Below, in pieces: positions 1 to 15,009 of a DNA stretch of 21,521 bases. The stretch covers positions 1 to 21,521 of the IMG/VR virus record IMGVR_UViG_3300037245_004359. One strand, given 5' to 3'. Position 1 is the first letter of the stretch; each line of letters opens with the position of its first letter. The notes under the pieces are model-generated. The model ran no database searches. It worked only from the letters and a program-made list of their open reading frames with translations, and was not told the origin of the DNA. Position numbers and translations under genes: made by a program. This DNA is from a virus.

Positions 1-2844
1 GGAATGTACTGGGTCGAGGTCGCGCCGAACCAGCACAACGATACACAGCAGAGCGACATCGTGAACCTCATTTCGTATTCCGAAGATATGACACAAGCTG
101 CATGGGCTGACATCGGCGCGCCAGTAGTTACACCGACAACGCTCGAAGATGATTCTGCCGCCGCCTTTGAGGCCGTATCCCAAGACGTAGCCATTGCGAA
201 TGATGCTGAAACATACAGCGCGAGCGCCTTCTTTCTCAAAGATTCTGACACGACGCGATTCCCTGAAATTCAACTATACCTCAAGGGTGGAACTCAGCAA
301 GACATCTTTGTGCAGCTAAACACACAGACGGGCGCAATCAATACCCGCGATTCTACTGGCGTCGCCTCAGCGGCAGTCACAGACGAAGGCACACACTGGC
401 GGCTGGACGTGCGTGTCACCAATAACTCATCCGGTAATACAACCGCCGAAATGAGAACATACCCCGCCGTAACAACTACGTGGGGCGTCGCCGAGGCTTC
501 TGCAACAGGCTCCGTGACGGTAACGAAGTTTCAGCTTGAGATTGGCAGTGCCGCGAGCGCATACTCGGGGCCAACCGGCGCGAACGCACCTCAAACCATC
601 ACGCTCACCACCGGAGGCCTCACCCTCCTCGCATGGACCGGTGGCTACATTCTCAATGTCACCCGCTCCCAACTCCGCGCGACGGTCTCGCATACTGCCG
701 ACAAATTCACTCTTGAGGGCGACGTCACGACGTGGCAGGCGGGGGATACGCTAGAGGTCTACGACGCGTGGTCTACGATTCAGGCGGCGGCGGATCAACT
801 CTTCACGGATCAAGGGTCGGCGACATTCACGGCGCTTCAGTATGTTCGCATCTTCGCTGGGACATATGCGGAAGCCGTGGTGTTCAACACTAATTTGAAG
901 CCGAGCCTCTTGAATGCTTACGCCTTAATTATCGAGGGCGACCCCACGGCCCCAAGATCCGACATAATTATTCAGCCGCCCGGCGGCAGTGGCAACGGCC
1001 TGATGGCACAAGTGGAGTTGCTCGTGGTTCGACACCTGACAGGCGACGGTATAAACATTACGGGGACATTCAATTCGATGGTGTCCTTCGCCAACGTGAT
1101 AGATGGGCTAGTCTCAGATTGCAGTATCACTGCGAGTGGGGGTAGTTGTATCGTCGCAAGTGCCACGATAACTGTTGCCGACTGCGAACTCACGCAGTTT
1201 GGTAACCGATTCTGTATTGCTGCTAGCAGCCTCCTCATTACGGTGCGAAATACGATACTCGTCAATTCAGCCCTGTCGGGTGTACGGTACGGTATTGAGG
1301 CAGGTTTCGATTCGCGCTTTGAGGGCTGCACGTTTCGGAATTGCGCCATAGGCATATTGCTGCACAACAATGTAAACTCGCGAGGTGATCTTCGTGTTTT
1401 GAATTGTAGCTTTTATGCTTGTACCATCGGCGTCTACATGCTCAAGAATATGGGCGCTGGCACGGCGCAACTGACGAACAACATTTTCAAAGACTGCACG
1501 ACAGTGATTCGCGTGCGGAACTGGCCCGACGAAGCAACGGAAGGCCACTCGGCGCAGCGGTGGGTCTTGCGCAATAATGCTATTCACGGCGAGACCGATT
1601 TTGCTTCGGATGTCCTGACCGCATCAACGAAGACCTATTCCGAGTTCGCGGTTCTCGATGGCGTAGACGCATCCGGCGACATCTTCACCGACCCCCTCCT
1701 CACCGACCCAGCCGCAGGCGACTTCAGCCTAGCCGCCGGCAGCCCCTGCATCTGGACCGGGCACGGCTCGGGCGTCATCACCGGGATCAACGGCGTTGCG
1801 TTCGACAAGTACCACCCAGACATCGGCGCATGGTCGTCGGGCGTGGTCCCGGCTCCGAGTTGGCCCGGCGGGTCAAACATCGTAGCAACGGATCGTATGA
1901 AGAATGGCGAAGTGGGCCTAACGTGCGACGAGCCCCTTGCAACGACGCTGACAAATCTCAGCAAGGGCTACATTTGGAAGTCCAAGATTGGCGCGGGCGC
2001 GTACACGGAGCATGGGCGCTCAACTACTAACAGCTTCAACGTGGGAATGCTAACTAACGACGTAGAGCGCATATTCCACGTCACCGCATACACGCGCGTC
2101 ACCGCGGAGCCCGCAACAGCCGCAAGCGATACGTCTACCGCGACGGCTACAAGTGGAACCACGCCCGCAGTAACGCCAACGCTCGCAGTAGTAAACGACG
2201 GCACAGGCAATTCGTTTACGGTAACGTTCGTCGCCGACGACGAAACGGATATCATGCACCTGTCGTACAAGCGCGCGGAACTTGCAGACTGGACCGACGC
2301 GGAACGCACAGGCAGCGGCGACAAGCAGATAACGGGCTTAAAGCCCGGAATTCACGATGTTCTCGGATATGCAGAGGACGATAATGGCTTCTTCAGCGCA
2401 CCTACCTCGCTAACGCGGCTTCTCGTTATAGCAGACTCCGGCGAGTTCGAAGCGCTGACGTCATACATACGCGCGCGCTTTAAGACTTTCATCGCGGATG
2501 CGGAGTCGCTGGCTACGCAGTATGATAACGACGGCGGCTTCGTCAAGCCGAACGACGGACTGTGGTGCCGCTGGACTGTGCTTCCCGGCGAAAGTCGCCA
2601 AGCATCAACTGGCGCTTCCAAACGCTACCGCACCCCGGGCGTTGCTATCGCAAGCGTCTTCGTTCCTATGTCCGAAGGCGAAAGCGCGCTTTGGCCCATA
2701 GTCGACGCAATCAACCTTGCTTTCCGCGGTATTACAGCGGACGGCGTTCGTTATCTTATACCGAAAGTCTCCAAGGTGGGGCGAACGGGAACGTCATTCC
2801 AGGCCAATGTGACCTGCCCGTTCGAGTCCGACGTGATAAGCTAG
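1..2844 (+). CDS. Beta-helix tail protein with C-terminal tail-terminator-like domain (5' partial)
   Basis: The frame is open at the left edge. The first in-frame ATG is at 4 and no ribosome site is visible, so the N-terminus may lie outside the window. Numbered from that ATG (946 residues): residues about 20-195 form a jelly-roll/CBM-like module opening with NLISYSEDM, common in phage receptor-binding proteins. Residues about 255-600 are a right-handed parallel beta-helix with repeated short Asn/Cys/Gly-rich turns, ending in PDIGAWSSG (605-613), the usual end of such helices. Residues about 620-810 look like two Fn3-like domains. Residues about 814-946 (WCRWTVLPGESRQAS, RYRTPGVAIASVFVP, TCPF) resemble DUF4128-type tail terminators, which cap the tail tube at the neck. 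The next gene is the major tail protein, where a terminator gene normally sits. A beta-helix joined to a neck protein is unusual. Domain calls are from remembered family patterns, not a search. Confidence 0.8.
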   Translation, partial: GMYWVEVAPNQHNDTQQSDIVNLISYSEDMTQAAWADIGAPVVTPTTLEDDSAAAFEAVSQDVAIANDAETYSASAFFLKDSDTTRFPEIQLYLKGGTQQDIFVQLNTQTGAINTRDSTGVASAAVTDEGTHWRLDVRVTNNSSGNTTAEMRTYPAVTTTWGVAEASATGSVTVTKFQLEIGSAASAYSGPTGANAPQTITLTTGGLTLLAWTGGYILNVTRSQLRATVSHTADKFTLEGDVTTWQAGDTLEVYDAWSTIQAAADQLFTDQGSATFTALQYVRIFAGTYAEAVVFNTNLKPSLLNAYALIIEGDPTAPRSDIIIQPPGGSGNGLMAQVELLVVRHLTGDGINITGTFNSMVSFANVIDGLVSDCSITASGGSCIVASATITVADCELTQFGNRFCIAASSLLITVRNTILVNSALSGVRYGIEAGFDSRFEGCTFRNCAIGILLHNNVNSRGDLRVLNCSFYACTIGVYMLKNMGAGTAQLTNNIFKDCTTVIRVRNWPDEATEGHSAQRWVLRNNAIHGETDFASDVLTASTKTYSEFAVLDGVDASGDIFTDPLLTDPAAGDFSLAAGSPCIWTGHGSGVITGINGVAFDKYHPDIGAWSSGVVPAPSWPGGSNIVATDRMKNGEVGLTCDEPLATTLTNLSKGYIWKSKIGAGAYTEHGRSTTNSFNVGMLTNDVERIFHVTAYTRVTAEPATAASDTSTATATSGTTPAVTPTLAVVNDGTGNSFTVTFVADDETDIMHLSYKRAELADWTDAERTGSGDKQITGLKPGIHDVLGYAEDDNGFFSAPTSLTRLLVIADSGEFEALTSYIRARFKTFIADAESLATQYDNDGGFVKPNDGLWCRWTVLPGESRQASTGASKRYRTPGVAIASVFVPMSEGESALWPIVDAINLAFRGITADGVRYLIPKVSKVGRTGTSFQANVTCPFESDVIS

Positions 2845-2869: not shown

Positions 2870-4273
2870 ATGTCTGATGCCGACAGAGTATCCATGCGCT
2901 TTGTGGAAGAGGATACGTGGGGCACTACGCCCGCTGGCGAAACACTCGCCGACATCACGATTGACGCTATCGCGGTGGACCAGTCATTCAACGACTCGGA
3001 CACTGCATTCGTGACGAACGGCTTCGTCGCGGGCCAGCGCATTCTGGTCTCCGGCTTCACGCTCGACGCCAACAACGGCTTCTTCACCATCGTCTCCGTT
3101 GTAGCTGCGAAGATGATCGTTGCAAAGGGCGCGTTGGCTATCGTCGACGAAGCGGAAGGCGATAGCGTTTCCATCGTCACCGCTATGACCGAGATGCGCT
3201 ACACTGCGGACAGCTTCAAGCAGGAAAACACTAGCGTCGAAAGCGCTGAGATTCGCGGCGACCGGCAGATTGCAGACGTCAAGCGTTCCAGCGTCGAAGC
3301 GAGCGGCGACCTCAGCTTTGAGCTTTCGTACGCGGCTCACGACGACTTCTTCGAAGCAGCGTTGCAGTCGCCCGACTGGTCGGACGTCGCCACGGACACG
3401 CAGATTACTTTCAGCGCTGCTATCAGCGACAACTCGTTCAACGACTCGGGCAGCGGGTTTGTCTCCGCGGGCTTCCTGCAGTACCAGTGGATAAAGGTCT
3501 CGGGCTTTACGCTCGCAGCCAACAACGGGTACTTCAAGATCGCGTCTGTAGTCGCGGGCAAGATTATCGTAACGGGCGGAACGCTTGCAGACGAGGTCGC
3601 TGGCGACACGGTTACCATCGAAATGGGAGCGCAGATTTACAATGCCACCACGCAGCGCTCGTTCTCCGTGGAGAAGGAATTCACGGACTTGCCGAACGAA
3701 TTCCTCATTTACGTGGGCATGACGCTCAGCACCATGAACTTGGCCGTAGACGCGTCCAGCATTGTCACGGGCGACTTCGGCTTCATGGGCAAGACAGAAG
3801 CGAGCGCCACCGCTTCTGCCGCAGGAGCTGGCGGCAGTGAGGACGCCGCAGAGAACGACATCATGGGCGCTGTTGACGAGGTAGAGTCATTCCTCGAAGC
3901 GCAGTCCGCGCTGTCCATCGTGTCGGCGACCATTTCGCTGGATAACAACCTCCGCTCTCGCATGGAGGTCGGCGAAGTTGGCCCCGTTAGCTTCGGCGCG
4001 GGCAAGTCCTCGGTCTCCGGCGACGTGGAGATCTACTTTGAGTCGAAGGCTATCATGGACAAATTCCGCGACCAGACAGAAACGTCCCTCGCGCTTACGT
4101 TCGAGGACGAGGACGGGAACGGATATGTTATTGACATGCCCCGCGTCAAGTACTCCGCTGCCGAGCAGGCAGTGTCTGGTGAGAATACAGACGTCGTAGC
4201 CAAGCTCGGCTTCGTCGCGTATCGCGAGGAGGACGAGGACATTACAATTCGCATCGCCCGGTTCGCTGCCTAA
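2870..4273 (+). CDS. Major tail (tube) protein with a duplicated inserted domain
   Basis: 467 residues, starting at an ATG behind a strong GAGGAGGA ribosome site (2859-2866). The N-terminus (RVSMRFVEEDTWGTTP) and later segments such as TEMRYTADSFKQENTSVES, GDLSFELSY and RSFSVEKEF match the phage tail tube protein family, whose stacked rings build the tail tube. The position between the terminator-like domain and the tail chaperone agrees. The protein is longer than many relatives because a segment of about 60 residues occurs twice: about 40-102 and 190-250, both FNDS..xF followed by VSGFTL.ANNG.F.I.SVV..K.IV. Both copies are small beta-rich units that would probably project from the tube surface. 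The C-terminal half (about 310-467) continues the tube fold. A 10-bp hairpin follows the gene. Confidence 0.88.
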   Translation: MSDADRVSMRFVEEDTWGTTPAGETLADITIDAIAVDQSFNDSDTAFVTNGFVAGQRILVSGFTLDANNGFFTIVSVVAAKMIVAKGALAIVDEAEGDSVSIVTAMTEMRYTADSFKQENTSVESAEIRGDRQIADVKRSSVEASGDLSFELSYAAHDDFFEAALQSPDWSDVATDTQITFSAAISDNSFNDSGSGFVSAGFLQYQWIKVSGFTLAANNGYFKIASVVAGKIIVTGGTLADEVAGDTVTIEMGAQIYNATTQRSFSVEKEFTDLPNEFLIYVGMTLSTMNLAVDASSIVTGDFGFMGKTEASATASAAGAGGSEDAAENDIMGAVDEVESFLEAQSALSIVSATISLDNNLRSRMEVGEVGPVSFGAGKSSVSGDVEIYFESKAIMDKFRDQTETSLALTFEDEDGNGYVIDMPRVKYSAAEQAVSGENTDVVAKLGFVAYREEDEDITIRIARFAA

Positions 4274-4343: not shown

Positions 4344-4742
4344 ATGCCTTCGCTTGTGAGTCTCAAGACGGATCTAGTAGCTGAGGTCAAGGGCGTTTGG
4401 ATTCCTGTATTCGGCGGACTTCGGTTGCTCATCGGGCGCATGGGTTCCGTTACCTACAAGCGCGAGGCGCGCCGCCTTAGCCAGCCGCATCTCCGCAGGC
4501 TGCGCAACGGCGATACGGAGCTTATGGAGGACATCAACCGACAGGTGATGGCCGCCACCGTATTGCTGGGCTGGGAAAACCTGCAGGACGAAGAGACTGG
4601 CGAGAACGTGCCCTTCAGCAAGAAGGCAGCGCTCGAGCTTCTCACGAAGTATCCGGAGTTCCTCGAGATGGTGCAGGAGTACGCGAGCAGCTTTAACACC
4701 TTCGCCGTAAAGGAGAAGCAGGACGCCGAGGAAAACTCCTAG
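4344..4742 (+). CDS. Tail assembly chaperone, short (gpG-like) form
   Basis: 132 residues, ATG preceded by AAGGAG (4332-4337) at 6-nt spacing. Size, position between the major tail protein and the tape measure, and the link to a second frame downstream match the lambda gpG class of tail assembly chaperones. These bind the tape measure and tail tube subunits during tail assembly and are absent from the virion. The body is charged and mainly helical, with ENVPFSKKAALELLTKYPEFL near residues 92-112 followed by an acidic/lysine tail. The following frame is -1 relative to this one and is open across the stop codon, the arrangement used for gpG/gpGT frameshifting. The sequence is too divergent to name a Pfam family with confidence; the call rests mostly on context. 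Confidence 0.8.
   Translation: MPSLVSLKTDLVAEVKGVWIPVFGGLRLLIGRMGSVTYKREARRLSQPHLRRLRNGDTELMEDINRQVMAATVLLGWENLQDEETGENVPFSKKAALELLTKYPEFLEMVQEYASSFNTFAVKEKQDAEENS
4697..4742 (+). promoter_or_regulatory. Probable -1 ribosomal frameshift window of the tail chaperone
   Basis: The downstream frame is open from 4697 (after a TAA at 4694) and the upstream frame stops at TAG 4740-4742, so a -1 slip must happen in these 46 bases. No textbook X-XXY-YYZ heptamer is present. The best candidates are G-GAA-AAC at 4730-4736, just before the stop, and GTA-AAG at 4707-4712. In both, the second-codon tRNA can re-pair on AAA. Confidence 0.55.
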
Positions 4743-4789
4743 CGGTCCTGCGCTGGTCGCTCGATTGGGGCGACGACAAGATTTTAGCA

Positions 4790-5059
4790 GTGCTTGAAGC
4801 GCGGGCGCGCAAGGGGCAGTCGGCGCCCGCGCTGGACCGAGAGCCAGTTCTGTTTGACGACTTGCGTTCCGTATGGGAAGTATTCTTACGTATTAGCCCG
4901 CGCCGTGCGCAGGGCTTTAACGGGCCTATGCCTTTGGGGACGCGGGAGATTTATGACACGCTTGCCCTATACGGTTTTGAGGGCGAGGAAATTGTCACTG
5001 CGTTTGAGCTGATAGCTGTGCTCGACGCGGAACTCCTGCGCAAGAACGAATCGAAGTAG
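4790..5059 (+). CDS. Tail assembly chaperone, frameshift extension (T-like part)
   Basis: As a free gene this would start at GTG 4790 (89 residues), but no ribosome site precedes that codon. The same frame is open back to 4697 and reads AVLRWSLDWGDDKILAVLEA between the upstream stop and this point. It is therefore best read as the C-terminal part of a -1 frameshift fusion of roughly 238 residues with the preceding chaperone. The T-like part (DLRSVWEVFLRISPRRAQGF, REIYDTLALYGFEGEEIV) is helical. In the lambda model the extension contacts the major tail protein while the G part binds the tape measure. It ends 2 bases before the tape measure start, consistent with translational coupling. Confidence 0.7.
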   Translation: MLEARARKGQSAPALDREPVLFDDLRSVWEVFLRISPRRAQGFNGPMPLGTREIYDTLALYGFEGEEIVTAFELIAVLDAELLRKNESK

Positions 5060-5061
5060 CC

Positions 5062-7380
5062 ATGCCCGTACTCCCCGTAGCTATTGACGGACGCCTAGCA
5101 GTTGCTGGCGCAGCGCAAGCGCGCGGCGCTATGGCAAGCGTGCAGACTGGCGCAAAGGCTACCACAGGCGCTCTAAAGTTCATGGGCGCGGCGCTCGTCG
5201 GTGCGTTCGCTGTAAGCAAAGTCATCAAGGTTTTCGCGGGCTTCGAGGAGACGATGAAAACGGTGCGCGGCGTTACGGGCGCGACCGCTAATGAGTTTGC
5301 AGTTCTCGAAAAGCAAGCACGCGCGCTGGGCGCAACTACGCGCTTCACTGCGCAGGAAGCGGGCGAGGGTCTGCTATTCCTCGCGCGTGCTGGCTTCACA
5401 GTAGACGAGTCCCTTGCAGCGCTCCCCCACACGCTGGACCTCGCAGTCGCGGGCGTGCTGGACCTCGGCACTGCGGCAGACATTGCGTCAAACGTGCTGA
5501 CACAGTTTAACCTTACCGCGGACGAGACGCAGCGCGTGGTCGACGTGCTTGTGACTACGGCGAACTCCGCAAACACAAGCGTGGGCCAGCTTGCAGAAGG
5601 TATGAAAATGGTCGGCCCCGTGGCGGGCGCGCTTGGCAAAACTGTAGAAGAAACTTCCGCAGCGCTGGGCGTGTTGGGCAATAGCGGCATACAGGCGTCC
5701 ATGGCAGGTACAAACCTCCGCGGAATGCTCGCCAAGCTGCTCGACCTAACGGGCAAGTCCGGGCGCGAGCTTCGCAAGATGGGAATTGAGCTAAAGGACA
5801 TAAACCCAGCCACAAACGATCTTGCGGACATCTTCCAGAAGCTCGGGGACGCGCAGCTTACAGCGGGCCAAGCAACAAAGATATTTGGCCGGCGAAATGC
5901 AGCGGCCGCGCTCATTCTCTCGCGGAATGTGGACGAAGTGCGCAAGCTTACGATAGCGAACGAGAAGGCGCGCAACGTTGCTAAGAAGTTGGCGAAGGAG
6001 ATCGACGACTCGCTCTCTGGATCCATGCGCGCGCTCAAGTCCGCTACTGAGGAAGCTATGATCCAGATGGGCGAGGGCGCGCTGGGCAGCGCGTTCCGTT
6101 CGCTAGTTGATACCGCGACCGAATTTATGCTCGCCATTGGCGGCGTCGAGTCGAAGTACACGGCAATGCGCGCAGCGGCTGCGCGAGCTATCTTCTTTAT
6201 GATGCGTCTGTGGGAAGACCTCAAGTTTAGCGCTACGGTCGTGGCGCTTGAGCTACAGTTCCAGTGGAAGGACTTCTTCGACGGCGTGGTCGCAATGGCA
6301 AGTTGGGTAGGCGCCCGGCTCGACTCCGCATGGCTCGGTATTAAGCATGCGGGCGGGGTGCTAGTCGACACGCTCCGTGGCTACTGGGATGGCTTCTTTA
6401 AGTTCCTCGATGCAGGACTTTTGAAAGTAGTTAAGGGTCTCGCCGCCGTAAGTCTTGCAGGGGATCAGCTCCTAGCGGGGCTTGGGGGAAAGGGCACAAC
6501 GGCCGTAACTGATCGTCTTCAAAGATTCGTAGCAGATGATCAGCAGCAGAAACTCCTGGAAAGACGACGCGCAGCGGCCGGTGGTGGGGGCGTAGGTATT
6601 GTAAACAATGCCGCGGAGCGGCAGCGTGAGCGCGCAGCGTTTGACGCTGCGCAGCTTCGAGCGGATGCTAGCTATATCGCACAAAGCGGGGCGCTGCAGG
6701 ACACTGCAAATGCCGCGCAGCTCACTGCGGCTAGAGAGCGCGCTCGCGCACGCCAGCAGCTTCTAATCGAAGAGCAGGGCCTTTTGCGGGATATGTACGT
6801 TGCCGCGATAGAAGCAGAGAATGGAACTGCGGATGCGAGTGAACGCGCAGCGCTAGGCGTTAAGAAAATAGGCCTTGCGGCTGACGATGCTAACGCCAAG
6901 CTCAGCGCGCTCGAAGAGGCTTCGCAAAGCATTGCACAAACCGTTGGCGATTCCGTCGGAAAACTCTTCAGCGACCTCATCTTCGAGGCTAATTCGTGGA
7001 AGGACGCGCTCGAGAACCTCTTGCGTGGCGTGACGGAAGCAATCGTTCAGCAACTTATTGTAACTCGCATCGCAAGCGGGATCGCCGGCGCTATTGGCGG
7101 AGCGCCTGCAGTTGGCGGGGCGCCAAGCGTTGGGCCTACCGCCCTATCTATTCCTGCGGCGTCCCCGGGCGGGCTTCGCGGACTGCTGGGCCCCGCAGGT
7201 AGTGCGCCCGCTTCCGGCGGGAAGACGGGTGGTGGACGCGAAGCTGCAACGCGTGGCAGCAATATAAGCCAAACGATGGTTTTCAACATGCCTAGCGTGC
7301 GCAATCCCGACGACTTCCGACGGTCGCGTTCGCAAATGTTGTCTTTGGGCCAACGCATGGCGGCAAGCGAAGGGCGGTAG
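5062..7380 (+). CDS. Tape measure protein (TP901 family)
   Basis: 772 residues. The ATG lies 2 bases after the chaperone stop with only a weak ribosome site, suggesting translational coupling. Residues about 65-290 match the TP901/PhageMin_Tail core: ARALGATTRFTAQEAGEGL, then AADIASNVLTQF and VVDVLVTTANSANTSVGQLA, then GNSGIQASMAGTNLRGML. A hydrophobic stretch near residues 37-55 (FMGAALVGAFAVSKVIKVF) and another around 660-685 are typical of tape measures, which pass into the host envelope during DNA delivery. The middle (about 490-620) is Ala/Arg/Glu-rich and helical. The C-terminus (DDFRRSRSQMLSLGQRM) resembles lambda-like tape measure ends. Length sets tail length: at the usual ~0.15 nm per residue this implies a tail near 115 nm, an estimate only. 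Confidence 0.93.
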   Translation: MPVLPVAIDGRLAVAGAAQARGAMASVQTGAKATTGALKFMGAALVGAFAVSKVIKVFAGFEETMKTVRGVTGATANEFAVLEKQARALGATTRFTAQEAGEGLLFLARAGFTVDESLAALPHTLDLAVAGVLDLGTAADIASNVLTQFNLTADETQRVVDVLVTTANSANTSVGQLAEGMKMVGPVAGALGKTVEETSAALGVLGNSGIQASMAGTNLRGMLAKLLDLTGKSGRELRKMGIELKDINPATNDLADIFQKLGDAQLTAGQATKIFGRRNAAAALILSRNVDEVRKLTIANEKARNVAKKLAKEIDDSLSGSMRALKSATEEAMIQMGEGALGSAFRSLVDTATEFMLAIGGVESKYTAMRAAAARAIFFMMRLWEDLKFSATVVALELQFQWKDFFDGVVAMASWVGARLDSAWLGIKHAGGVLVDTLRGYWDGFFKFLDAGLLKVVKGLAAVSLAGDQLLAGLGGKGTTAVTDRLQRFVADDQQQKLLERRRAAAGGGGVGIVNNAAERQRERAAFDAAQLRADASYIAQSGALQDTANAAQLTAARERARARQQLLIEEQGLLRDMYVAAIEAENGTADASERAALGVKKIGLAADDANAKLSALEEASQSIAQTVGDSVGKLFSDLIFEANSWKDALENLLRGVTEAIVQQLIVTRIASGIAGAIGGAPAVGGAPSVGPTALSIPAASPGGLRGLLGPAGSAPASGGKTGGGREAATRGSNISQTMVFNMPSVRNPDDFRRSRSQMLSLGQRMAASEGR

Positions 7381-12900: not shown

Positions 12901-13278
12901 GCAGCCGTGGCGGATTCCCCGTCGCAATACATGACGTTTACGGGGCGCTCGTTGCGGCCCTTCGCGCCGGCGCATGTTGCAGCTACGCGCGACGGCGCGG
13001 ACAACATTACGCTAACGTGGGAGCGCAGGACGCGCGCGCTTGTCGACGTCTTCAGCACGGGGCGCATGCCGCTGCTCGAGGAGGAAGAGTCCTACGAGAT
13101 CGACATTATGGATGGCGTAACGGTGCTGCGAACAATCACGGCGACAGTAAAGACTGCGGCCTACAGCGCCGCAGAGCAAACGTCAGACGGACTTACGCCC
13201 GGGGATCCCGTGGCGGTGCAAGTATTTCAGATATCCGCCGCAGTAGGGCGCGGGTATACTAACGAGGAGACAGTCTAA
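9946..13278 (+). CDS. Central tail tip protein, GTA Orfg15 / gpJ-like, with inserted ligand-binding-like domain
   Basis: 1110 residues, ATG 2 bases after the NlpC stop. The N-terminus (AIILTAVGVGVGGPAGAALG, about 3-30) is hydrophobic and glycine-rich, as in Orfg15-type proteins. LGDRKLQVASEGSPINYLLG and EYSVDVAIAVCEGEISKVGRIW are typical of gpJ/tail-tip proteins, and the second half (DEASAIALRALYSAWSNRRA, RGMRGSE followed by FAGSHAAAEAFVFL) follows the phage-tail_3/Rcc01698 C-terminal pattern. The protein plugs the tail tip and contacts the receptor. A glycine-rich linker near residues 92-102 precedes the core. Residues about 331-485 (NILTNSRTMVDWTDG ... NINVYISDMRYE) look like a separate jelly-roll/CBM-type domain inserted in the core, resembling the first module of the protein at the left edge. 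The C-terminal part (about 1005-1110) is Fn3-like. It shares a TAATG overlap with the fibre gene. Confidence 0.87.
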   Translation: MSAIILTAVGVGVGGPAGAALGVIAGTLGAFADSRYIFPALFGVPEIVGGKLGDRKLQVASEGSPINYLLGPENRCAGTVIWKTDLIEQRIVTETGGGGGKGGGSPGANVVTYEYSVDVAIAVCEGEISKVGRIWANGKLLYDVLPVATIEADDITATALANPPGHSNPNTLILSAPEGGTDLTQLKPYYVGNMTGWAAEANNRNFIVNKTEQLGIDGTLAYLSAHQFPSTWLSEAPGNTIGITQDQSAQFGRGKYEGVEIHTGGAEQAVDSLIEAAEEAGTTPAFRNIAYVVFDGLKLADFGNTLPQFSFEVQGEGGGQYITSEVDYLNDNILTNSRTMVDWTDGSGGGGSYATITEAAAYNHNAKREDAVRLQLVRLGGGVARVQSPNLVINPDVSAPRMQMVTFWARLAVGTAASMRVIFGATHSANVSLTAAWQKFQLTTPIASSSTPWLQFGSYAAFANDANINVYISDMRYETDPEGSEVFGDEDEYTADIDGTFTNVELPSALLTIEDHIGEHVVMGSDSYPIVANGLGWARVTGDAVGDGHARGSALTLGPRNGVTTVAFALGQVLERAGCVSAQYDTSGVIGNLRGVLVVGPSALDGLLRALLFAYDVVVQERDGVLYFKTRSTLTADTVPATALVAHAPGEDVPRIAEFEDLPLVELPSEIKITYVDADADSQAGEQSARLGLPEANNVATLSLPLTLSPDEASAIALRALYSAWSNRRAIRLQLPPSYAWVREADLLTATLEGESYTVLVTRAARGNNGLILVDSVVEETAALTQTGTGATRGEVNEEFYLPPALTLEMMDLPALNDEATQVAGFYAALCASDPAAEFTAGVLFDSIGDSTYSMIRAITVETVMGRCDTTLADGIIGSWDTINTLEVTLDHGTLESRTALEVLNGLNFALVGAEVIGFQTATLVTGTTYTLSNLIRGMRGSEGFAGSHAAAEAFVFLNSAGLQYFKANVGMLGLKRYYKAAASGAAVADSPSQYMTFTGRSLRPFAPAHVAATRDGADNITLTWERRTRALVDVFSTGRMPLLEEEESYEIDIMDGVTVLRTITATVKTAAYSAAEQTSDGLTPGDPVAVQVFQISAAVGRGYTNEETV

Positions 13279-14936
13279 TGTCCGACACCCCGCGCCTAGG
13301 AATGGCCCAGCTGATCGAAGCACAGCAGAATGGATACATAACGCACAACGAAGCACTGAAAGTGCTTGACGCTCTCGTCAATTGTAGCGTTATTGACAAA
13401 GATCTCACAGCGCCCCCAGGCGGTGAGACGGACGGCGACGCGTATATTGTAGGCGCGGGCGCTACTGGCGACTGGGCTACGCATGACGACGATATTGCGT
13501 TCTACTTTGGCGGCTATATCTACATAACGCCGATTACAGGCTTCCTCACTTACGTTGCGGATGAAGCGCTCACGTACGCGTTTGTAGGCGCTGCATGGGG
13601 AATTCGAACTATATCGCTAGCGGAGCTAGCAGAGATCGCAACCGATAAGCTCCTAGGCAGAGCAACGGCGGGCACTGGCGCAGTCGAGCTAATTTCATGC
13701 ACGGCGGCGGGCCGTGCGCTGCTTGACGACGCGGCGGCGTCAAACCAGCGGACGACACTCGGCTTCGTCGCTGAGATTTTGGACAAAGCGTCGCCGGGCG
13801 CAATCGGCGGCAGCACTCCCAGCACGGGCGCGTTTACGGACTTGTCTGCTTCCGCGAAGCTCGTCCGCTCGACGGCGGTGGGCATTACTGCAAGTACGAC
13901 ACAGAGCCAGGGCCAACAGCCGCTAACGAAGGACATCAACGAGATTGCAGTGTGCGCAAACGCTGACGACGTCGCCACACTGCCGACCGCATCTGCCGGA
14001 CGCCGCGTTGCTATACAGAACAACGGTGCAGAACAGCTACAGATATTTCCAGCCAGCGGTGACGGCATCGACGACAACGGCGCGAACATTAGCGTTACGC
14101 TCGCGGCGGGCGCGTTTGTCGAGTTTGTCACTTCAACTGCCGCGCAGTGGTATACGGCGGCGAGCGCGGGTGGCGGCGCGCCGGCGCTCCACGCTGCAAG
14201 CCATACAGATGGCGCAGACGACATTCAGGACGCCACTGCCGGCCAGAAGGGCGTTGCAACCGCAGCGCAGATTACGAAGCTGGATGCCATTGAGGCGTTG
14301 GCTGACGTGACGGACGCGACTAACGTCAACACGGCGGGCGCGACGATGAACGCCGACACGAACGTGAAGGCGAACGGGTGGGTAATCGACGAGAATGATA
14401 TGTCCTCCGACCTCGATACGAAGGTGCCAACGCAGCAGTCGGTTAAGAAGTATGTCGATGACACCGCTGCAGGCCTAACAGCAGCCAACTTCAACGCGTA
14501 TCGCACAACGGCATTTGACATGGCGGCAGATGACACTTGGTATGACTACCCGTGGAATGTAGCTGCAACGGTGAAAACCGGTTTTACGCATAGCCACACA
14601 GCGAGCGCAGAAGAGGTAACTGTTACGGCAGCGGGCGTGTACCTAGTAACGTGGTATGGCTCGCTGTCGGCAGCAATAAATGGTGGCGGTGCCACAAGGC
14701 TATTGCTCGATGGAACTGAGGTGCCGGGTAGTTACCGAAATATCCACATTGACGGCGGGTCCACCCGCGGTCAGCAGACTTCAACAATGGTTGTAGCGAT
14801 AGGCGCAGGCGAGGTGATAAAGGCACAGTTTGCATGCACAAATAACGGGGCCGACATCGTTTACATAGACCCCGCAAACTTACCGGATCCGACGACGTTT
14901 GTATCAGGATCAATTTCAATTGTTAAAGTAGCGTAG
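13278..14936 (+). CDS. Tail fibre: DUF2793 N-terminus, C1q/TNF-like C-terminus
   Basis: 552 residues. Residues 1-115 follow DUF2793 (LGMAQLIEAQQNGYITHNEA, then GDAYIVGAGATGDW, GFLTYVADEALTYAFVGAAW), common in tail proteins of phages and prophages of Pseudomonadota and probably the attachment end. Residues about 219-294 form a small beta module (LPTASAGRRVAIQNNGAEQL, IFPASGDGID, AQWYTA). Residues about 320-355 contain the fibre-shaft motif AGQKGVATAAQITKLDAIEA. Residues about 406-552 look like a C1q/TNF-type jelly roll (YRTTAFDMAADDTW, YLVTWYGSLSA, VIKAQFACTN), a trimeric head often used for receptor binding. No chaperone gene follows; instead a 92-bp gap carries a remnant of another fibre end. 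Receptor binding is inferred from architecture. Confidence 0.85.
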   Translation: MSDTPRLGMAQLIEAQQNGYITHNEALKVLDALVNCSVIDKDLTAPPGGETDGDAYIVGAGATGDWATHDDDIAFYFGGYIYITPITGFLTYVADEALTYAFVGAAWGIRTISLAELAEIATDKLLGRATAGTGAVELISCTAAGRALLDDAAASNQRTTLGFVAEILDKASPGAIGGSTPSTGAFTDLSASAKLVRSTAVGITASTTQSQGQQPLTKDINEIAVCANADDVATLPTASAGRRVAIQNNGAEQLQIFPASGDGIDDNGANISVTLAAGAFVEFVTSTAAQWYTAASAGGGAPALHAASHTDGADDIQDATAGQKGVATAAQITKLDAIEALADVTDATNVNTAGATMNADTNVKANGWVIDENDMSSDLDTKVPTQQSVKKYVDDTAAGLTAANFNAYRTTAFDMAADDTWYDYPWNVAATVKTGFTHSHTASAEEVTVTAAGVYLVTWYGSLSAAINGGGATRLLLDGTEVPGSYRNIHIDGGSTRGQQTSTMVVAIGAGEVIKAQFACTNNGADIVYIDPANLPDPTTFVSGSISIVKVA

Positions 14937-15009
14937 AATTAGATCCCAACCTCCAGACATTGGTGCATGGTCGTCGGGCAATGGGCCCAACAACGTTTTC
15001 AGTGGGTAG
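14937..15009 (+). pseudogene. Remnant of a beta-helix protein C-terminus
   Basis: Directly after the fibre stop, the frame at 14953-15009 reads PDIGAWSSGNGPNNVFSG and then a stop. Its first 27 bases match 1816-1842, inside the beta-helix protein at the left edge, at 25 of 27 positions, both differences being third-codon-position C/T changes. The frame closes upstream at a TAG (14929-14931) and has no start or ribosome site. It looks like the leftover end of a beta-helix fibre whose body was lost or replaced, perhaps by recombination through the conserved PDIGAW end. Confidence 0.65.

Follow-up and report, generated by a model that had tools for sequence, protein, structure and literature searches.

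A phage tail terminator extended into a long N-terminal arm, a possible mount for neck adhesins

The stretch of DNA analysed here (the window) is the whole of a 21,521-base virus record, and its first base already lies inside a gene that joins a multi-domain arm to a tail terminator (Table 1). Because the record opens inside this gene, the ATG at base 4 is an unproven start and the true N-terminus is missing. The genes that follow are those of a tail: the tail tube, chaperone and tape measure genes are succeeded by a tail-tip set (DUF2460, baseplate hub attachment protein and hub), and no head genes were found among the window proteins scanned.

Table 1. Positions of the fused gene, its domains and the neighbouring tail genes in the window.
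Feature	Position	Strand	Details and basis
Fused gene, arm + tail terminator	1..2844	+	5'-open, at least 947 residues, stop 2842-2844
N-terminal beta-rich, jelly-roll/CBM-like module (NLISYSEDMTQAAW...QLEIGSAASAYS), no family	46..600	+	weak matches only; low-confidence beta-rich single-sequence model
Right-handed beta-helix, NosD type, ends HPDIGAW	841..1899, best ~1102-1494	+	Pfam NosD PF05048
First Fn3-like segment, tentative	1897..2172	+	residues 633-724; weakly similar to second Fn3
Second Fn3-like domain, joined straight to terminator	2176..2445	+	residues 726-815; L102 similarity, model, Foldseek
Tail terminator domain	2446..2841	+	residues 816-947 (132); PHROG 179, PF13554, PDB profile, predicted fold
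Major tail tube protein (Phage_tube_2), directly after fusion gene	2870..4273	+	PF18906 5e-38
Two tail assembly chaperone genes	4344..5059 (4344-4742, 4790-5059)	+	phrog_313, phrog_8233
Tape measure protein	5062..7380	+	phrog_1533 1e-75

An earlier reading made from the sequence alone (the sequence-only reading) had proposed that the last ~130 residues are a tail terminator in the slot where that gene belongs, and both parts of this proposal are borne out. The C-terminus matches the tail terminator family PHROG 179 (E = 5.7e-22) as well as PF13554, Phage_tail_terminator_5, which we take to be the former DUF4128, at 28.1 bits, just over the cut-off of 27. A profile built from 26 relatives matches terminators of solved structure in the PDB (9jlf, 10lj). 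An AlphaFold model built on relatives has a pLDDT of ~87-98 across the domain, and Foldseek pairs it with the T1 stopper-terminator (1.2e-5), FCWL1 (2.8e-5) and also lambda gpU. With all four lines of evidence concurring, the possibility that would have overturned the reading, a C-terminal domain of some other kind, fails. The domain sits directly before the tail tube gene; the upstream side, that of Neck1, is outside the record. That the window terminator assembles into a hexameric ring is inferred, without structural or assembly data.

The domain calls are firm for the C-terminus, good for the beta-helix and moderate for the second Fn3-like domain. For the beta-helix (residues ~367-578), the Pfam NosD match scores 26.7 bits against a cut-off of 23.6; a DUF5123 match in this region (0.0007) is below its cut-off. 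The second Fn3-like domain is 35% identical to an Fn3 domain in the related locus L102, which itself reaches only 19.3 bits against Pfam fn3 (cut-off 25); Pfam fn3 has no match in the window. It is modelled as a beta-sandwich with a pLDDT of ~70, and Foldseek matches the model to fn3 structures. The segment before it is unresolved in the structure model, and reading residues 633-724 as another Fn3-like domain is only a suggestion. The N-terminal ~200 residues have a suggestive resemblance to a phage jelly-roll module, with CBM identity unproven: neither a CBM nor any other family matched residues 16-200 above noise, nothing in this first module was recognisable as a binding or enzyme family, and a single-sequence model of residues 1-642 (mean pLDDT 39.5) was unusable. 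Of the arm parts that had been proposed, the beta-helix stands by a family match above cut-off and one Fn3-like domain stands by fold only, but the CBM call has no family match behind it.

The beta-helix DNA had also been described as GC-poor, as expected for an acquired module. The direction is right, at 48.3% and 46.7% for the quoted beta-helix intervals compared with 56.7% and 58.3% for those elsewhere, but the beta-helix stretch is at 53.5% compared with 57.2% overall, and 9% of all 120-base intervals are at or below 50%. Foreign origin does not follow, and we rejected GC content as a sign of acquisition. A further observation concerns the end of the beta-helix, where bases 1816-1842 encode PDIGAWSSG: a 27-base stretch at 14953-14979, just after the tail fibre gene at 13278-14936, is 93% identical and encodes the same residues. 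It looks like what is left of a second beta-helix gene, or like a scar of recombination.

Arm and terminator are continuous, as had been proposed, since positions 1-2844 form a single open frame. The in-frame ATG nearest upstream of the terminator domain is at 2254, without an SD-like sequence; another, at 1897 between the beta-helix and Fn3, has no clear Shine-Dalgarno sequence either. Since no usable internal start lies close to the terminator domain, the ring protein would be made solely as a fusion, barring processing. The extent of the fused domain can be judged against locus L009, a close homologue by its tail tube that has a plain terminator: Glu-Phe-Glu-Ala in the window aligns with the start of the L009 protein, Met-Asn-Leu-Glu-Ala, which indicates that the fusion retains the complete terminator domain and has lost the start codon alone. 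The junction itself is seen on a single contig that has no near-identical counterpart. Even so, we hold with high confidence that the fusion is real.

A direct search of viral contigs with the C-terminal 220 residues, the N-terminal 633 residues or the tail tube protein as queries found no relatives, and these were recovered with family alignments instead. They were gathered via the tail tube and the terminator, and all frames were scanned with the terminator profile. Their gene order is head-tail adaptor, head closure, Neck1, terminator and tail tube, with the Neck1 and terminator genes no more than 10 residues apart in 92 of 112 non-redundant loci. Where the gap exceeds 30 residues (15 loci), it is filled by arms, insertions or extra genes. 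The extra genes include one for a LamG-like protein in L216 (LamG by eye) and, in L005 (4295-4735) and L136 (1300-3800), homologues of gp80, the fibre protein of GP4 (PF23140); L136 has two uncharacterised proteins there as well.

The terminator carries an arm, or in one case contains it, in 11 of 121 non-redundant related loci, the window included. This is not a frequency, because the sampling was non-random. Homologues with the same kind of fusion had been named as a check on the first interpretation, and ten further loci with armed terminators answer to it: L095, L005, L136, L230 (with L232), L244, L247, L262, L264, L256 and L240. PHROG 179 confirms the ring domain of the armed loci, for the L230 group via L232, and the near-identical pairs L136/L117 and L247/L248, perhaps reassemblies of one sample, were each counted once. 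Long frames at alphaproteobacterial terminators (442, 703 and 316 residues) proved spurious, running upstream of ordinary starts, and were left uncounted; no true fusion was found among the ~20 alphaproteobacterial matches. This absence, together with the plain terminator of L009, indicates that the fusion is dispensable.

The arms differ in content from locus to locus, with DUF2341 (59 bits, Pfam), a weak CBM_4_9 match, Gly/Ala/Ser repeats and Fn3 among them. One of the armed loci is L095, whose tail tube is ~51% identical to that of the window: its 306-residue protein has its own start and an SD-like sequence, and an Fn3-like domain runs into the terminator. The CBM_4_9-like module belongs to L240, where it is inserted within the first ring domain (21.1 bits, below the Pfam cut-off), and Pfam recognises DUF2341 and, weakly, GH16 (19.1 bits against a cut-off of 22) in L247. 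In L262 (2511-5795) an 840-residue arm before tandem terminators matched no Pfam or PHROG family; by eye, it may be a glycosidase-like domain. Short Gly/Ala/Ser-rich repeats join the outer domain to the ring in L136 (3821-4820), L230, L247 and L264, as if a repeat shaft were favoured across several unrelated arms. Separately, a module of ~75 residues (DNSFND...GFT.ANNGYF...GDTVTI) occurs twice in the tail tube protein of the window and again as an insertion in the terminators of L095 (1994-2911; 2.3e-14) and L113 (5311-5979; 3.6e-5), so that it is present in two different tail ring proteins. Trees of the 130-residue terminator domain are poorly resolved, and we claim no exact number of fusion origins; for the single-arm terminators, the starred branches require three changes or more. 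Since other phages have repeatedly fused arms to the terminator, it looks as if the neck ring can be reused as a mount for additional host-contacting fibres.

The pair L230 and L232 allows a comparison of arm and ring over a short distance. To either side of the arm the two loci mostly share 94-99% identity, around 97% in the surroundings of the terminator, and in the terminator part itself 94-97%, but only 64-76% within the arm. The ratio dN/dS is 0.77 for the arm and 0.11 for the terminator, and synonymous divergence rises from 0.15 in the terminator to 0.52 in the arm. This jump at synonymous sites points to exchange besides fast change. Judged from these sequences, the divergence is as would be expected of a host-facing module.

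Most of the armed loci (8 of 11) have an unarmed terminator behind the armed one, either in tandem (L005, L136, L262, L256, L240) or as two genes (L230, L247, L264). The second terminator, where relatives have two, lies downstream; the window has none there, and we infer that six arms are to be expected. A separate terminator upstream, which the sequence-only reading had named as a way to be overturned, would lie outside the record. In the T5 tail, the terminator is a hexamer resting on a tube ring that is trimeric but has pseudo-six-fold symmetry (PMC11784142), and we infer that paired terminators could likewise assemble into a ring of three-fold symmetry bearing three arms. Tandem terminator domains also occur without a long arm, in L125, L138, L142, L146, L147, L235 and L243, and in the tree most first domains of these armless tandems group loosely with armed first domains. 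Whether evolution has used the terminator as a general mount for neck adhesins across a broad siphophage group is in our judgement evenly balanced. There would then be two designs, a single armed terminator with six arms, as in the window, and a pair of one armed and one unarmed terminator whose ring would be three-fold and pseudo-hexameric and would carry three arms; the paired design predicts a three-fold ring built from paired terminators.

The reading that we find likely is that the window encodes an armed hexameric terminator whose arms are accessory neck adhesins contacting surface polysaccharide. The C-terminal domain would assemble as a hexameric ring, capping the tail tube and docking to the head, its N-terminus being extended into the long arm (a jelly-roll-like module, a beta-helix and one or two Fn3-like domains). 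Up to six arms would stick out sideways from the neck, where they would most likely act as accessory adhesins whose weak, multivalent contact with surface polysaccharide is reversible and comes ahead of engagement by the tail tip. That the ring assembles, that the arms point outward, how many there are and that they bind the host are all inferences. A position at the neck seems to us well supported, and binding to the host reasonably probable. By analogy with the roseophage R4C structure, in which the main helices of the terminator lie at the ring periphery (PMC10276861), an N-terminal arm outside the ring would be consistent. Against an armed ring, a T5 terminator with an N-terminal His-tag is a soluble monomer, while a C-terminal tag gives fibres (PMC11784142), so additions at the N-terminus may disturb assembly.

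The arm could instead be a structural decoration that stabilises the head-tail joint or shields the neck without touching the host. Fn3/Ig-like domains are frequent virion decorations for which binding has not been shown, and in L102 (642-1361) an Fn3 related to that of the window is joined to the N-terminal end of the head closure protein Hc1 (phrog_161 2e-12), a neck decoration reached by a different route. We consider this unlikely, however, because in L230/L232 the arm has diverged much more quickly than the ring and than most of what surrounds it, and because arm content is wholly different between lineages, sugar-surface domains included. That the arm is a depolymerase enzyme and not a binder is improbable: beta-helices are frequent in phage depolymerases, and the weak GH16 match of L247 and the large undefined domain of L262 lean the same way, but no catalytic family matched in the window and the NosD match indicates a fold only. 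Separate ring and fibre in the virion, through cleavage of a polyprotein or a shorter product, would accord with the processing known for some phage structural proteins and with the in-frame ATG at 1897; it is very improbable given the lack of a clear Shine-Dalgarno sequence at either internal ATG, the absence of any recognised protease and the continuity of arm and ring in relatives too. An assembly chimera of a fibre gene and a terminator gene, which had been named as a way for the reading to fail and for which the single contig beginning inside the gene and the plain terminator of L009 could speak, is largely rejected as the most improbable of all, since the junction is in frame with the whole terminator kept from its second residue and no start codon, L095 has the same type of Fn3-terminator junction, and ten other non-redundant loci have fused terminators, one pair (L230/L232) coming from diverged contigs. 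The sequence-only reading was essentially right, with six neck arms and polysaccharide binding still inferred, and the case generalises beyond the window.

Most known neck adhesins come from lactococcal phages, where they are separate collar proteins. Here the tail-ending ring protein itself would be the mount, in 11 non-redundant loci with different arms; we found no description of terminator-anchored adhesin arms in the open-access literature searched. The terminator would join the tail proteins that take grafted binding modules (Dit, MTP, Tal), and fusion would account for the hypothetical proteins, 300-1100 residues long, that occupy the place of a 130-residue terminator.

The PHROG 179/PF13554 terminators of Nanhaivirus, YuA-like and Xp15-like phages share domain, fold and gene position with that of the window, but those examined are armless, at ~125-150 residues. 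The best phage-record match for the tail tube and hub proteins of the window is MW202657.1 (Siphoviridae sp. ctIqW946), and in its protein UOF80047.1 the terminator is likewise part of a fusion, lying C-terminal to a beta domain and Ser/Gly/Ala repeats; this protein differs in having two terminator domains in tandem and is annotated just as a hypothetical protein. Evolved Dit and TpeX/MTP extensions likewise graft sugar-binding modules on core tail proteins (PMC6669499, PMC4759559), but on the distal tail and tube, not the terminator. The larger terminators of myophages and PVC16 also have extra domains, including a duplicated terminator fold (PMC11784142), but these are described as sheath-binding or structural, not as adhesin-like.

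By analogy, the closest working counterpart of the window arm would be the neck passage structure (NPS) of the lactococcal 936 and P335 phages, likewise an accessory neck adhesin, whose gene in 936 phages lies upstream of the major tail gene. Its outer domain is a CBM or, in two groups, a beta-helix, and the outer end is variable and exchanged while the anchor is fixed (PMC4759559, PMC6669499, PMC10684548, PMC9692632); for one of these neck CBMs host binding has been measured (PMC6669499). The window has such an outer domain in its NosD beta-helix. The NPS differs in being a protein of its own, modelled in 18 copies, that has a BppU-like collar domain at the N-terminus and a coiled coil, whereas in the window the anchoring part is the tail terminator, with the arm on its N-terminal side; a BppU-like collar domain has no Pfam match in the sequenced part of the window protein, whose N-terminus is missing, and the visible anchor is the terminator. 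On the best reading, in which both position and host binding are inferred, the arm has a neck-adhesin role like that of the lactococcal NPS and is anchored differently.
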